This document shows, one piece after another, positions 12,134 through 46,107 of a stretch of 64,000 bases of DNA. How positions within the stretch are numbered: the first letter of the stretch is position 1; each line of letters begins with the position of its first letter. Source of the DNA: Natronomonas halophila (GTDB lineage: Archaea; Halobacteriota; Halobacteria; Halobacteriales; Haloarculaceae); NCBI RefSeq assembly GCF_013391085.1, contig NZ_CP058334.1, positions 682,001-746,000 on the forward strand, given 5' to 3'. The position numbers and the translations under genes were made by a program. Below the pieces are notes generated by a model. It searched no databases. It saw only the letters and a program-made list of their open reading frames with translations, and was not told where the DNA came from.

Positions 12134-12437
12134 GCCACTTTTTGCACGGGGCGCCTGCGGCGCTGCGGGCCGAAGGTCCTCTGGGCGCCAGTCCAGGGAC
12201 CTATCCAGAGATTATTGGTACCACAGCACACACACCTAGAGTGCAAGGTCAGAAAGGACGCGCGGCCCACCACAGGCACGGAGTTCGTCTAATGGCACAC
12301 AGCATTTGTACACCGAGAGCCGGCGGGGAGTTGCCCTACTTTCAGCGGCTGTCGCAATCGTTGTTAAACACTGATACCGATGCAACGACCAGACTCCAAC
12401 AACTGTTCGAACACGAAACCATCGAATTCGACCTAAA
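12134..12437. other. Intergenic region at the edge of an AT-richer island, no supported gene
   Basis: Begins with CACTTTTTGCACGGGGCGCC, the same TTTTTGCACGG word that opens the hairpin at 281, but lacking the matching right arm. Base composition drops from about 12,200 onward. Frames here (12142-12456 plus strand and 12236-12514 minus strand) have non-haloarchaeal composition and overlap real genes, so none is called. Confidence 0.5.
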
Positions 12438-12785
12438 TTACGCGTTTCTGTCGTAGATGTGGTACGCTTGCAAACTTTTTGCCAGTGTTGCAACAGTAAC
12501 AAGCAGAAGCGCAAGCGTCAGTGTCGCAAATCCGTACCAGAGATAGTACAAGCCCGCAAGGACGAGAGCAAGGGTGCCGATGACGGGGAGTACATAATAG
12601 AAGCATCGCTCACGACCGCTAAGCAGAAATACGCCACCGACACCGCAGACGGCGAAAAGGGCGATACATACCAGCCCAAACAATCCATCCGTACCTAAAA
12701 GGGTGAATGCGAAGGCCGACCCGACGATGCCGACCGCTACGGCACCCCAACCGCTAATCCGCAGACGCCACAGGCGAGTGTCCAT
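12438..12785 (-). CDS. Small membrane protein in an AT-richer island
   Basis: A 115-residue protein with four hydrophobic helices (about residues 11-30, 33-54, 62-82, 84-104) and a basic N-terminus (MDTRLWRLRISGWG). Start at the ATG at 12785; the upstream extension to 12809 adds eight residues from a GTG-like start and is less likely. Codon use is less GC-rich than in neighbouring genes, suggesting recent acquisition or relaxed selection. Function unknown; it is divergent from the HalOD1 gene. Confidence 0.62.
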   Translation of the reverse strand: MDTRLWRLRISGWGAVAVGIVGSAFAFTLLGTDGLFGLVCIALFAVCGVGGVFLLSGRERCFYYVLPVIGTLALVLAGLYYLWYGFATLTLALLLVTVATLAKSLQAYHIYDRNA

Positions 12786-12984
12786 ACTCCGGTTGAATAA
12801 GATGAACATGAAAATACTACTAGATTCGCAGTCGCGTTCTCACACCGACTTCGGTCGGGGCACGTAGAAGCAGTAACACCCTGAATCAGTCGGTAGAGGG
12901 TATCGATGAAACGGTCGGTGTAGGTAAACGGGAACTAACAGATATTCTATGGTAATAACCCTCTTTTTGATAGGTAGTGCAGAA

Positions 12985-13257
12985 ATGTCTATGGATGTTG
13001 AACAGTTTCGCTACGTAGCAGAAGAGGAGGAATCATTAAGCATGGCGGTTGTCAGCGCGGTTGCACAGGCGCATCATGAAGATATTATCGAACAGGATTG
13101 GATAATCAACAACGACATCAATACTGATGCGTTGGACGGCCTCTTCCAAGATGGACATTTGAATATGACGCTCCGCTTTGAGGCAGATACGACGACGGTC
13201 ACGATCGATGCGGACGAGCGGGGTAATCCGGTAATCGAGATCGAATCACACCGCTAA
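12985..13257 (+). CDS. Stand-alone HalOD1 domain protein
   Basis: A 90-residue protein consisting of a halobacterial output domain 1: SMAVVSAVAQAHHEDIIEQ, then DINTDALDGLF, then two strands (LRFEADTTTVTIDA, GNPVIEI). HalOD1 is normally the C-terminal output module of response regulators or a stand-alone partner of them; its biochemical role is unknown. The start ATG at 12985 (or 12991) was chosen over 12949, which adds an unrelated hydrophobic stretch. AT-richer codon use than neighbours. No sensor kinase is adjacent; the nearest signalling gene is the REC-PAS-PAS protein 17 kb away. Confidence 0.78.
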   Translation: MSMDVEQFRYVAEEEESLSMAVVSAVAQAHHEDIIEQDWIINNDINTDALDGLFQDGHLNMTLRFEADTTTVTIDADERGNPVIEIESHR

Positions 13258-16632: not shown

Positions 16633-16650
16633 GTTTAGGTAGACCTAAAC
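16633..16650. promoter_or_regulatory. DtxR/Idr-type iron box A (perfect palindrome)
   Basis: GTTTAGGT-AG-ACCTAAAC: an 8-2-8 perfect palindrome seven bases before the ATG of the 55-residue gene, downstream of the TATA-like CTTTTTGG (reading the minus strand, 16658-16651). It is the TTAGG-type word of haloarchaeal iron-regulator sites. At this position a bound repressor would block start-site melting or polymerase entry. The DtxR gene lies immediately upstream on the same strand. Confidence 0.8.
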
Positions 16651-18498: not shown

Positions 18499-18516
18499 TT
18501 TTAGGCCCGCCTAAAA
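18499..18516. promoter_or_regulatory. DtxR/Idr-type iron box B (perfect palindrome)
   Basis: TTTTAGGC-CC-GCCTAAAA, perfect 8-2-8, ending 5 bases before the ATG of the binding-protein gene and next to its TATA element (18518-18525). This is the arrangement expected for repression of a leaderless promoter. Box C (18535-18552) lies upstream of the TATA element, centres 36 bases apart. Confidence 0.83.
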
Positions 18517-18517
18517 A

Positions 18518-18525
18518 CTTATAAC
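18518..18525 (-). promoter_or_regulatory. TATA-like promoter element of the binding-protein gene
   Basis: On the minus strand this reads GTTATAAG, 24-31 bases upstream of the ATG at 18494, flanked by boxes B and C. It is the expected spacing for a leaderless haloarchaeal transcript. Confidence 0.55.
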
Positions 18526-18534
18526 TCCATCGGT

Positions 18535-18552
18535 TTTTAGGCCCACCTAATT
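18535..18552. promoter_or_regulatory. DtxR/Idr-type iron box C (imperfect palindrome)
   Basis: TTTTAGGC-CC-ACCTAATT: TTAGGC opposite ACCTAA, one central mismatch pair. It lies between the FAD-oxidoreductase stop codon (18570) and the TATA box of the binding-protein gene. Together with box B it brackets the TATA box. Confidence 0.65.
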
Positions 18553-19601: not shown

Positions 19602-19619
19602 GTTTAGGCCCACCTAAAA
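19602..19619. promoter_or_regulatory. DtxR/Idr-type iron box D
   Basis: GTTTAGGC-CC-ACCTAAAA, one mismatch pair. It lies directly upstream of the ATG at 19599 and downstream of the TATA-like TTTATT (minus strand 19626-19621), so it covers the start-site region of the FAD-oxidoreductase transcript. Confidence 0.75.
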
Positions 19620-42246: not shown

Positions 42247-43704
42247 GTGCCTTCGCTGAACCTCGAACCGCTGACCTACGATGACATCCCGTCGGCGCGG
42301 CGTCCGAGCCTTCGACAGGCGCTGGTCCCCGTACTCGGGGTCGTCCTGTTTCTCGGCGTCGGTTCCGGGTATCTGAAACTGGCACCCCATGGGCCACTCC
42401 TCTGGAGTATCGTGTTAACCGGTGCGGTCGGCAAGTACTGGCTCGGCTACTCGTGGGAGGACCTCTACGAGGGCCTCGCCGATAGCCTGCTGATGGGCTT
42501 GCAGGCCATCCTCATCCTGTTCGTCATCTACGCGCTTATCGCGACCTGGATCAGCGCCGGGACCATTCCCGGACTGATGTACTACGGGCTCGCGATATTG
42601 ACGCCGGACGTCTTCCTGCCGGCAACGGCGCTACTGGCGATGGTCGTCGCCTTCTCCATCGGTTCGTCGTGGACCACTGCCGGGACCCTCGGCGTGGCCT
42701 TCATCGGCATCGGGGCGGGCCTCGGCGTCCCCACCCCGATGACCGCTGGGGCCATCCTTTCCGGCGCCTACGCGGGTGACAAGCAGTCGCCGCTGTCGGA
42801 CACGACGAACCTCGCGGCCGCGGTGACCAACACCGACCTCTACGACCACATTCGCGCGATGCGCAACGGAACGGTTCTTGCCTTCGGCCTCTCGCTCGTA
42901 CTCTATGCGGCCCTCGGCCTGTATGCCGGCGACGCGATTCCCGCCGGCCGCGTCGCCGAGATTCAGGGCGCACTCGCCGGGACTTACGACCTCTCGGCGC
43001 TGGTCTTCCTGCCGCTCGTGGTCACGTTCGGACTGGCGCTCTACGGCGTCTCCGCGCTCCCGGCGCTCGTCGCCGGCGTCTTCGCCGGCACCTTCACGAC
43101 GGTCCTCGTTCAGGGGCGGTCCTTTATCGCCTCCTGGGAGGTCTTCCTCGAAGGGACGGCACCCGAGACGGGCGTCACGCTCGTCAACGACCTGCTGGCC
43201 AGCGGCGGCCTCTCGGGGTCGGCCTGGACCATCTCGGTCGTCGTCGCCGCCCTCGCACTCGGCGGCCTCCTCGAACGGACCGGCGTCCTCGCCGTGCTCG
43301 CACACGAACTCGCGTCGGCCGTCTTCGGCCCGCGCAGCCTCGTTATCGGAACCGGCATCTCCGCCATCCTCGTCAACGCCTTTTCAGCCCAGCAGTACAT
43401 GAGCATCGTCGTCCCGGGGCTCACCCTTCGGAACCTCTACGACGAGTACGGGCTGGCGGGCGAGGACCTCTCGCGGGCCATCGAGTCCGCGGGGACCCCG
43501 ACCGGCGCGCTCATCCCGTGGCACGCCGGCGCCGTCTACATGTCCACCGCCCTCGGTGTGGGAACGCTCGCGTACTTCCCGTACTACTTCTTCGCGTTCC
43601 TATCACCGCTGGTCCTGTTCGCGACGACGCTCCTCGGCGGACGCTACGACGAGACGGCGGACACCAACCCCGTCGAGTCGCCGTCCGCAGCGGCCGACGA
43701 CTGA
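42247..43704 (+). CDS. nhaC: NhaC-family Na+/H+ antiporter
   Basis: A 485-residue polytopic membrane protein with about 11 helices; it starts with GTG at 42247. Characteristic of NhaC: repeated glycine-rich helices, FSIGSSWTTAGTLGVAFIGIGAGLG, SGAYAGDKQSPLSDTTNLAA (about 180-199), and the C-terminal copy FSAQQYMSIVVPGLTLR with NxxxSxxxxGTPTGALIPWHAGAVYM. Members exchange Na+ for H+, or malate/lactate in close relatives, maintaining ion homeostasis in salt. An ATG at 42237 is out of frame. It is followed by a small cassette bounded by direct repeats. Confidence 0.9.
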   Translation: MPSLNLEPLTYDDIPSARRPSLRQALVPVLGVVLFLGVGSGYLKLAPHGPLLWSIVLTGAVGKYWLGYSWEDLYEGLADSLLMGLQAILILFVIYALIATWISAGTIPGLMYYGLAILTPDVFLPATALLAMVVAFSIGSSWTTAGTLGVAFIGIGAGLGVPTPMTAGAILSGAYAGDKQSPLSDTTNLAAAVTNTDLYDHIRAMRNGTVLAFGLSLVLYAALGLYAGDAIPAGRVAEIQGALAGTYDLSALVFLPLVVTFGLALYGVSALPALVAGVFAGTFTTVLVQGRSFIASWEVFLEGTAPETGVTLVNDLLASGGLSGSAWTISVVVAALALGGLLERTGVLAVLAHELASAVFGPRSLVIGTGISAILVNAFSAQQYMSIVVPGLTLRNLYDEYGLAGEDLSRAIESAGTPTGALIPWHAGAVYMSTALGVGTLAYFPYYFFAFLSPLVLFATTLLGGRYDETADTNPVESPSAAADD

Positions 43705-43739: not shown

Positions 43740-43754
43740 GGCCTCGGCACTCAT
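43740..43754. repeat. Left copy of 15-bp direct repeat
   Basis: GGCCTCGGCACTCAT, identical to 44618-44632. The pair bounds the AT-richer gene at 43961 and 206 bases of AT-rich upstream DNA. Confidence 0.75.
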
Positions 43755-43960
43755 TGGATTTTGGTCTACCGGTAGAAATTTGACTCAAAATCCTCTGTAC
43801 TCCCAATTTATCTTAGAATAGCGTCCAAACGTTAGTCGGTCTGGCTTCCAAATAGAGTTCGTAGTCGGGGAAGTTGGTTTATGATATCTTCGGGGGGAGT
43901 AGTTTGCTTAACCAGTAACACCATTATTCCGCCGGATGAACGACTTGCTATCCGAATCAG

Positions 43961-44611
43961 ATGTCTGTTCCATTGACCACATTACGACAACTAAGGGAGC
44001 AGTTTCCAGGTTCAAGCTGGGCGCTATGGAGCGAGGAATATCCAGATGAAGGTTGTATCGAGGAGCAGCCGGACCAGTTAGTTGAATTCATAGAGTCAAA
44101 CAGGAGCCAGTTGAATCCTGAAGTAGTATTCGTCTCACTAAATCCCTCAAGCGACCTTCCGACTGATTATGCCAACTTCCACTCGCCGTCGTGGAAGCAC
44201 TACGATGAACGTATCAAGGAATTCGTCCAAGAGAACGAATTAGAGAACCTAACGGGGGGATATATGACCGACATTGTGCCTGACGTGGCAGACCCAAACT
44301 CCGCAAATGTGACACCCGATACAGCTGATATTGACAGATTTAGCACCCAACTATCCATCTTAGATAAATCCGAGTATCACGTTATCTGTTTCACTGGAAA
44401 GACCTTCGAAGCGCTAAAATCCAATTTCGGAGCGGAGGTTCAGCAGCACCAGCACAATATCGAATCATTCACCGAATCGCTAGAGGAGAAAACGCTACAC
44501 GTCTACCGAGTCTGGTTTTATGGACTCTACGGAGTACATCAACAGAAGGTAGGGGAACTTGAGAAACAGCTCAAGTATCTCAATGATGAAGTCATAGAAT
44601 CTGCTGAGTGA
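43961..44611 (+). CDS. Uracil-DNA glycosylase-like protein in a low-GC, repeat-bounded cassette
   Basis: A 216-residue protein of low GC content and non-haloarchaeal codon use. It resembles the uracil-DNA glycosylase superfamily fold: VVFVSLNPSSD (motif-A-like, about 57-67), FHSPSWKHYDERIKEF, GGYMTDIVPDV (about 104-114), YHVICFTGKTFEAL, and the C-terminal VWFYGLYGVHQQKVGELEKQL. The motif-1 catalytic Asp/Asn and the usual HPS tail are not certain, so function is only suggestive. Flanked by 15-bp direct repeats, it was probably inserted as a unit. No transposase seen. Confidence 0.66.
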   Translation: MSVPLTTLRQLREQFPGSSWALWSEEYPDEGCIEEQPDQLVEFIESNRSQLNPEVVFVSLNPSSDLPTDYANFHSPSWKHYDERIKEFVQENELENLTGGYMTDIVPDVADPNSANVTPDTADIDRFSTQLSILDKSEYHVICFTGKTFEALKSNFGAEVQQHQHNIESFTESLEEKTLHVYRVWFYGLYGVHQQKVGELEKQLKYLNDEVIESAE

Positions 44612-44617
44612 TTTTGT

Positions 44618-44632
44618 GGCCTCGGCACTCAT
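44618..44632. repeat. Right copy of 15-bp direct repeat
   Basis: GGCCTCGGCACTCAT, beginning six bases after the cassette gene's TGA. Distance between copies is 878 bases, so the inserted unit plus one repeat is 878 bases long. Confidence 0.75.
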
Positions 44633-44733
44633 AGGGCTCGTCACCGTCGGCTGCCTACACCGACTCGGCCCGGTTGCTCGTCATCGGCCGGTCGAGGCTA
44701 CGGGCAGGAGGAAAAAGACGCTTTTCGTCCGTA

Positions 44734-46107
44734 TCAGTCGTCGTCGACGGCGGGCGCGGGCGCGTCTCGGGGGCCCTCGGGCGGTGCGTCGAATAGCGGG
44801 CTCTGGTCGCCGGGGACGAACGTGTTGAGGATGAGCGCCGACAGCGCGGTCATGATGACGGGTTCGCCGAAGAACGTCTGGGCGGCCTGCGGGAGGCCGC
44901 TGATGGCGTCGGGGCGGGTCGTGACACCGAGACCGAGGCCGAGCGCGACGGCCATGATGACCATGTTCCGGCGGTTGAGGTCGGTGTGCAAAGCGATGAG
45001 TCGGGCGCCGCTGGCGGCGACCATCCCAGCCATCAGGACGACCGCGCCGCCGAAGACGGCGCTGGGGATAGTGGTGACGACGGCGCCGACCTTCGGGCTG
45101 AGGCCGAGAATCGCGAGCATGACGCCGCTGATGCCGACGACGTGACGGCTCATGACGCCCGTGAAGTTGACGATGCCGACGTTCTGGGAGAAGGACGTGA
45201 CGGGGAAGGCCGCGAAAATCGAGCCGAGCGAGGACAGCAGGCCGTCGGTAAAGAGGCCGCCGCGGAACTCCTCGTCGTCGGGGTTGCGGCCCTCGGCGGC
45301 GGTGATACCGGACATGTCACCGACGGTTTCCATCGCGGAGACGAGGAAGAGGAACGCGAAGGTGATGATGGCGACGGGGTCGAACTCGAAGCCGAAGCGG
45401 CCGGGCGCCGGGATGGCAACCCATGCAGCATCGAAGACGGGCGAGAAGTCGACGAGACCGAAGGCGACGGCGACGGCGTAGCCGACGCTGATGCCCACGA
45501 GAATGCTGAGGAGGCGCGCGACGCCGCGGGTGAACATGTTGAGGACGACGGCGATGCCGAGCACGAGGGCGGCGAGGCCGATGTTATGCAGGGCGCCGTA
45601 GTCGGAGGCGCCGACGCCGCCAGCGGAGTAATCCATCGCGACGGGGATGAGATAGAGGCCGATGATGACGACGACGAGGCCGGTCACAAGCGGTGGGAAG
45701 AAGGGTTTGATGCGTTTGAACTGCCAGCCGATGAGTCCCTCGACGGCGAAGCCGGTGACGAGGATGGCGCCGAAGACGGCCGCGAGGCCCTGATTCGCGC
45801 CGATAGTCGTCGCCGCGCCGACGAAGGTGAAACTCGTCCCCATAACGATGGGGAGTTTCGCGCCGATTGGCCCGACCGTGTAGGCCTGCACGATGGTCGC
45901 CAGCCCCGAGAACAGCAGGACCATCTGGACGATGTAGGCGGTGTCGGCGGGATTGAGGCCGACCGCGCCGGCGACGATGAACGCGACCGCCGTCGCCGGG
46001 ACGATCATCACCGCGACGTGCTGGAGGCCGAGCAGTATCGATTTCGGCAACGGGGGCTTCTCGTCTCGCCCGTATTCGAGGTGTATCTCACCGTCAGTTT
46101 CCGACAT
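44734..46107 (-). CDS. NCS2-family uracil/xanthine permease
   Basis: A 457-residue nucleobase:cation symporter. About 12-14 helices; family features are LGLQHVAVMIVPATAVAFIV near the N-terminus, ITAAEGRNPDDEEFRGGLFTDGLLSSLGSIFAAFPVTSFSQNVGIVNFTGVMSRHV (the conserved NCS2 region, about residues 270-325) and a C-terminal end near GEPVIMTALSALILN. The Gln/Asn signature in SFSQNVGIV identifies the purine-xanthine branch rather than plain uracil. Upstream are two operator-like repeats and a phosphoribosyltransferase gene, so the set may serve salvage. Confidence 0.9.
   Translation of the reverse strand: MSETDGEIHLEYGRDEKPPLPKSILLGLQHVAVMIVPATAVAFIVAGAVGLNPADTAYIVQMVLLFSGLATIVQAYTVGPIGAKLPIVMGTSFTFVGAATTIGANQGLAAVFGAILVTGFAVEGLIGWQFKRIKPFFPPLVTGLVVVIIGLYLIPVAMDYSAGGVGASDYGALHNIGLAALVLGIAVVLNMFTRGVARLLSILVGISVGYAVAVAFGLVDFSPVFDAAWVAIPAPGRFGFEFDPVAIITFAFLFLVSAMETVGDMSGITAAEGRNPDDEEFRGGLFTDGLLSSLGSIFAAFPVTSFSQNVGIVNFTGVMSRHVVGISGVMLAILGLSPKVGAVVTTIPSAVFGGAVVLMAGMVAASGARLIALHTDLNRRNMVIMAVALGLGLGVTTRPDAISGLPQAAQTFFGEPVIMTALSALILNTFVPGDQSPLFDAPPEGPRDAPAPAVDDD

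Follow-up and report, generated by a model that had tools for sequence, protein, structure and literature searches.

A probable integrase-less mobile cassette at the 3' end of the sR-tMet guide-RNA gene of Natronomonas halophila

Our analysis makes it very likely that an 878-bp unit in the genome of Natronomonas halophila is a mobile cassette without an integrase of its own, put at the 3' end of the sR-tMet gene by a tyrosine integrase specific for that gene. More widely, the 3' end of sR-tMet serves in salt-loving archaea as the point of entry of a dedicated integrase and of small cassettes that bear toxin-antitoxin (TA) and defence-type genes. The unit lies within a stretch of 64,000 nucleotides that was analysed as a whole (hereafter the window), and the features of the locus are collected in Table 1.

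Table 1. Features at the sR-tMet locus of Natronomonas halophila, with positions counted from the first base of the window.
Feature	Position	Strand	Basis
Outer neighbour, Na+/H+ antiporter of NhaC type (nhaC)	42247..43704	+	Pfam PF03553
Second att core copy, outer end of the insert	43740..43754	-	Exact 15-bp repeat; two genome copies only
Inserted cassette, GC 0.455, without integrase gene	43755..44617	.	Composition, ORF list
Palindromic arm motif CTACCGGTAG beside the outer att core, where an integrase probably binds	43766..43775	.	Distribution of CTACCGGTAGNNNNNNATCCANTGAG
Cargo gene, 216 aa, predicted uracil-DNA-glycosylase fold, unnamed family	43961..44611	+	AlphaFold2, Foldseek, homologues
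Att core copy ATGAGTGCCGAGGCC, within the sR-tMet 3' end	44618..44632	-	Exact 15-bp repeat
sR-tMet, box C/D guide RNA gene, intact target	44618..44689	-	Rfam RF02163
Inner neighbour beyond sR-tMet, xanthine/uracil permease	44734..46107	-	Pfam PF00860

The unit is bounded by an exact 15-bp direct repeat, GGCCTCGGCACTCAT, whose two copies lie 878 bp apart and are the only ones in the whole 3.21-Mb genome. Both repeat and unit are thus exactly as the original prediction described them, and its concern that the 15-mer might be common in the genome is removed. The AT-rich character that it ascribed to the 216-aa gene in GC-rich surroundings is equally evident: the GC content of the insert is 0.455 and that of the cargo ORF 0.464, against 0.647 for the window, and the GC3 of the ORF is 0.51 against approximately 0.88 in neighbouring genes. 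No integrase is encoded within the 878-bp cassette, in which only one ORF reaches 90 aa or more, and that ORF lacks an integrase domain. A 15-bp repeat is by itself weak evidence; it acquires its weight here from the identity of the right copy with the 3' end of sR-tMet and from other genomes in which the 15-mer is likewise duplicated at this position. The target-site duplication of a transposon is an unlikely source, as the 15 bp coincide exactly with an RNA gene's 3' end and recur there across genera.

The right-hand repeat copy belongs to an RNA gene, which did not figure in the original prediction. Rfam model RF02163 (sR-tMet) aligns with positions 44689-44618 over its entire length (model positions 1-72 of 72) at 77.2 bits, against a gathering threshold of 50, with an E-value of 7.4e-15. 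Read on the minus strand, the repeat (ATGAGTGCCGAGGCC) forms the last 15 nt of the gene, comprising the terminal stem, box D and the greater part of the guide for tRNA-Met. Haloarchaeal sR-tMet is a box C/D RNA that guides Cm34 formation in tRNA-Met (PMC4033218). By reading of the sequence, boxes C, D', C' and D are AUGACGA, CCGA, GUGACGA and CCGA, and the guide, UAUGAGUG, would set a G against C34 five positions away from box D (considered against the CAU anticodon loop, the genome's own tRNA-Met being unaligned); an RNAalifold consensus did not draw the C/D fold. Flank searches showed that almost every member of the genus conserves, at 80-97%, the 72 bp from the right repeat onward, and in these relatives they mostly do not stand beside the permease, unlike in the window. 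The permease adjoins sR-tMet in two further genomes (G004 and G018). The insert is placed at the 3' end and leaves the gene intact, a geometry familiar from elements that occupy tRNA genes. ARAGORN detected no tRNA gene in the window, and such a gene was therefore rejected as the target itself. As a separate observation, an sR-tMet-like gene (54.6 bits; L075, G125:C1:650264-650337) is carried on a mobile element at sR-tMet in another genome; its 3' end is altered (ATGAGTACTGCCAGGCC) such that the guide is kept and the att core is lost, and this copy might provide the RNA without being open to attack by the integrase.

Recurrence of the site across the order is extensive. The 15-mer GGCCTCGGCACTCAT is present in 304 of 392 Halobacteriales genomes, single in most, and occurs twice on one strand in approximately 20 of the genomes searched. 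In the pairs whose sequences were retrieved, an intact sR-tMet precedes a second, exact copy of the core at a distance of 0.88, 0.98, 2.4, 4.8, 7.2, 9.1, 11.2, 13.1, 20.3, 23.7, 39.7, 41.4, 94.8, 97 or 104 kb. Overall, many Halobacteriales have elements, 0.8-104 kb in size, that are delimited by the same core of 13-15 bp, with the variant outer cores GTGAGTGCCGAGGCC or CAGAGTGCCGAGGCC in other elements. Extra att-like copies downstream of sR-tMet are strongly biased in orientation, with 34 sharing the strand of the gene against 3 on the opposite one.

The site is, moreover, associated with its own recombinase. Eight element proteins form one family with the tyrosine-recombinase residues (R..K..HxxR..Y), and the integrases scanned carry PF00589 (Phage_integrase) together with SAM-like domains (PF13495, SAM4). 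At E <= 1e-60 the family has 47 copies in 46 of the 392 genomes, nearly all full-length copies being at least 51% identical, and sR-tMet was located in 45 of these 46. Where integrase and sR-tMet share a contig, the integrase lies on the 3' side of the gene and within 102 kb in 38 of 41 cases; by a rough binomial estimate, uniform placement would essentially never yield such a bias, the counts resting on contigs of unequal length. The exceptions are G355, where the position is consistent with an element spanning the contig end; G318, where the integrase lies 276 kb from sR-tMet; and G093, where the integrase is far from sR-tMet and the element is bounded by two cores, with sR-tMet elsewhere. 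No member of the family was detected at E <= 1e-60 in the genome from which the window derives, and a profile built from the family found no integrase in the small elements of G014, G272, G100, G244, G227 and G374. The remote copies in G318 and G093 and the lack of a family member in the window's own genome count against the proposed insertion by this family, as does the 113.8-kb circular plasmid NZ_CP084471.1 of Natrinema salinisoli (L139-L142): the integrase that it encodes shares 62% identity with the sR-tMet family, and no att core (attP) could be recognised on it. No pleolipovirus was among the matches listed for the integrase.

Comparison of sister loci with and without an element provides direct evidence for insertion. 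G285 has no counterpart of the 13.1-kb element of G374, and the sequence that immediately follows its sR-tMet matches the outer flank of that element with 87% identity over 1,436 bp, beginning at the third base. In G014, a 975-bp one-gene cassette encoding a metallophosphatase separates sR-tMet from a VapBC-type TA cassette, which in G004, of the same genus, touches sR-tMet directly (81% over 925 bp). On these sequence comparisons, insertion can be regarded as proved for the G374 and G014 elements. The original prediction had looked to empty sites in relatives as the decisive check, and such sites are at hand for the two sister elements only. For the window's copy, none was revealed by searches with the flanks, by comparison of gene order with G004 and G018 or by a search of the window's own genome for the TA flank. 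The comparison fails there because the outer neighbour, nhaC, is not beside sR-tMet in relatives, the outer flank not being conserved; G018, for example, has other genes in its place. The flank GCCATTTTTGACGGTAGA was considered as the native empty site of the genus and rejected, as several genomes have it as the terminus of TA cassettes. In G004 an RHH/PIN pair abuts sR-tMet; in the window's genome this pair is found 298 kb away and inverted (L102, G000:C1:427436-428186), without a recognisable att core; either rearrangement or separate acquisition can account for this displacement.

The outer end of the window cassette has a defined structure, in which the palindrome CTACCGGTAG is followed by six bases and ATCCA beside the core. 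This complete arm, CTACCGGTAGNNNNNNATCCANTGAG (CTACCGGTAGn6ATCCA), occurs at only two places in the 392 genomes: in the window and at the outer end of a 23.7-kb element in G054 that carries a family integrase and a PifA-like gene. Other element types have paired arms of their own, for example TCTATCCATA and TATGGATAGA. Taken together, the sR-tMet 3' end, the recurrent site, the integrase family, the empty sites of sister elements and the shared arm lend strong support to the earlier suggestion of an att-like, site-specific cassette. We envisage that a tyrosine integrase would recognise the last 13-15 bp of sR-tMet and insert the cassette at the 3' end of the gene. The incoming core would restore the sRNA, including guide, D box and terminal stem, and the displaced core copy would remain as the outer repeat. 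Since the cassette has no integrase, its genome has no member of the family at the threshold used and the outer arm is held in common with G054, the most likely route is recombination in trans, with the integrase provided by a G054-type element resident in the same host; this mobilisation in trans is inferred, as is any present mobility of the cassette. The cargo would travel as a single promoter-plus-gene unit, its promoter being likewise inferred.

A mirrored arm could not be recognised at the sR-tMet-side end of the window cassette, and this end may be truncated. Hence it remains possible that the unit is a decayed element, now immobile: a larger, integrase-bearing element of G054 type would have inserted at sR-tMet and then been reduced by internal deletion to its outer arm and a single cargo gene. 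The match of the outer arm to the G054 element, the absence of the expected inverted arm at the sRNA-side end and the termination of the cargo gene 6 bp before the core are all compatible with such a history. We nevertheless consider it unlikely, because small integrase-less units are common at the sR-tMet site. They include DUF433/DUF5615 TA pairs of 802-806 bp and RHH/PIN-like pairs of 920-922 bp, with larger integrase-less units represented by a 4.8-kb LmuB-type cassette and a 7.2-kb unit with HSDR_N. Intact-looking units of 0.8-1 kb recur in tandem in several genomes with conserved ends and different genes, which for these units argues that small size is design and not accident, and the 975-bp unit of G014 is a clean insertion.

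Although their genes differ, the TA cassettes have both ends in common, and they are arranged in tandem with other units (G021, G010, G302 and G014). Six loci (L103, L112, L119, L128, L130 and L135) were seen to contain tandem TA cassettes of 0.8-0.92 kb, of the DUF433/DUF5615 and RHH/PIN types, with near-identical ends, different genes and a single orientation after sR-tMet. Tandem cassettes in the same orientation, with common ends and different TA genes, invite the view that sR-tMet founds an integron-like cassette array, in which one integrase family loads and shuffles cassettes with exchange of single-cassette cargo. The arrays are short, however, with one to three units, and most elements are ordinary integrase-bearing islands; in this form the idea appears doubtful to us. 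Less improbable, and put forward only tentatively, is an integron-like platform on the single-copy sR-tMet gene of Halobacteriales, onto which one sR-tMet-specific tyrosine-integrase family would load integrase-free cassettes in trans and in tandem, the window showing one of them. The cassettes of such a platform, of about 0.8-1 kb and up, would comprise TA pairs, Lamassu-type genes and glycosylase-fold genes, an inventory that we offer with the same reserve, since movement of a single cassette has not been shown. Finally, the view that two unrelated 15-bp matches merely happen to flank an AT-rich gene acquired horizontally by homologous recombination can draw on the eight exact direct repeats of at least 15 bp found at 0.3-3 kb spacing in the GC-rich window, but is in practice refuted by the right copy ending exactly at the 3' end of sR-tMet and by duplication of the 15-mer at the same place in many genomes with dedicated integrases.

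Turning to the cargo carried by the proposed cassette, the AlphaFold2 model of the 216-aa protein (mean pLDDT 86.8, pTM 0.88) upholds the suggestion of a uracil-DNA-glycosylase-like fold. Foldseek matched the model to the family 4 uracil-DNA glycosylase 4zbx with an E-value of 1.4e-4, and a second structure comparison aligned it with 4zby at a Z-score of 13.5 and 3.8 A over 174 residues; the best 50 PDB entries listed all belong to the UDG superfamily, with Z-scores from 13.5 to 9.9. The predicted protein thus has the fold of a uracil-DNA glycosylase over most of its chain, in common with family 4 UDG, TDG/MUG, UdgX and SMUG; base excision and a role in defence remain unshown. Identity to the superfamily is only 10-15%, and searches of Pfam, NCBIfam and PADLOC gave no match of weight and no family name. 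Among homologues, N61 within the motif 1-like VSLNPS is invariant, and the second motif is altered, with HY or FY in place of HPS/NPSG. N61 would stand where MUG and TDG have their catalytic Asn (GINPG), an inference from the order of motifs and not from superposition. Relatives at 39-46% identity are sporadic in haloarchaea, elsewhere in genomes and on plasmids, and those at 22-29% are found in both bacteria and archaea, one of them in a thaumarchaeote of Marine Group I. A phage origin found no support, there being no match in viral contigs or phage records. Most likely, the cargo is a base-recognising enzyme acting in repair or against invading DNA; its activity is inferred, without an assay. 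Brig1 is a known DNA-glycosylase defence protein, and this makes the idea of a defence role reasonable without constituting evidence for the cargo of the window.

Two further features were observed elsewhere in the window. A second stretch of low GC content (down to 0.45) extends over 12142-13257 and contains a small ORF at 12949-13257 that is HalOD1-like, a name given by eye. Four palindromes of the type TTTAGGCnnRCCTAA lie at 16634-16649, 18500-18550 and 19603-19618 (7 strand matches, 0 expected), which we take to resemble haloarchaeal iron-regulator sites of the DtxR/IdeR type.

That mobile elements can integrate into tRNA and tmRNA genes is textbook knowledge. The archaeal elements of tRNA genes (SNJ2, SSV, pTN3 and pT26-2 types; PMC8371274) likewise combine a tyrosine integrase with a short direct repeat, and the 3' end of the RNA gene is restored by the incoming core, as at sR-tMet. 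SNJ2-type integrases also possess PF13495 (Phage_int_SAM) and PF00589 and are limited to Halobacteria; SNJ2 itself has been reported in tRNA-Met, a gene distinct from sR-tMet (PMC5867852). The sR-tMet elements differ in targeting a box C/D sRNA gene. A review of archaeal tyrosine recombinases considers tRNA, protein-coding and intergenic sites only and leaves sRNA genes unmentioned (PMC8371274), and we found no published report of sR-tMet as an attachment site, subscription literature not being covered. CIMEs and integrase-less islets at tRNA genes are similarly att-bounded, lack integrase and transfer genes and accrete in tandem at one site, and their movement is presumed to depend on a related element, as at sR-tMet. 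Set against the criteria for a CIME, the window cassette has the att copies, no integrase and one shared arm, with the sRNA-side arm unrecognisable. The sR-tMet cassettes are, however, much smaller (0.8-1 kb, one gene or TA pair), archaeal and located at an sRNA gene. Integron cassettes resemble them in comprising small gene or TA cassettes in the same orientation and in tandem, with a tyrosine recombinase, but the core at sR-tMet consists of 13-15 bp from an sRNA gene of the host.

In the literature searched we found no precedent for a box C/D guide-RNA gene serving as a shared attachment site with an integrase family of its own. The site accounts for a number of orphan genes of TA and defence types, and our findings bring forward an unnamed, widely spread family of glycosylase-fold proteins. 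The sR-tMet gene provides a precise, single-copy and deeply conserved marker for finding the mobile cassettes of haloarchaea, and a natural landing site for haloarchaeal genetic tools.
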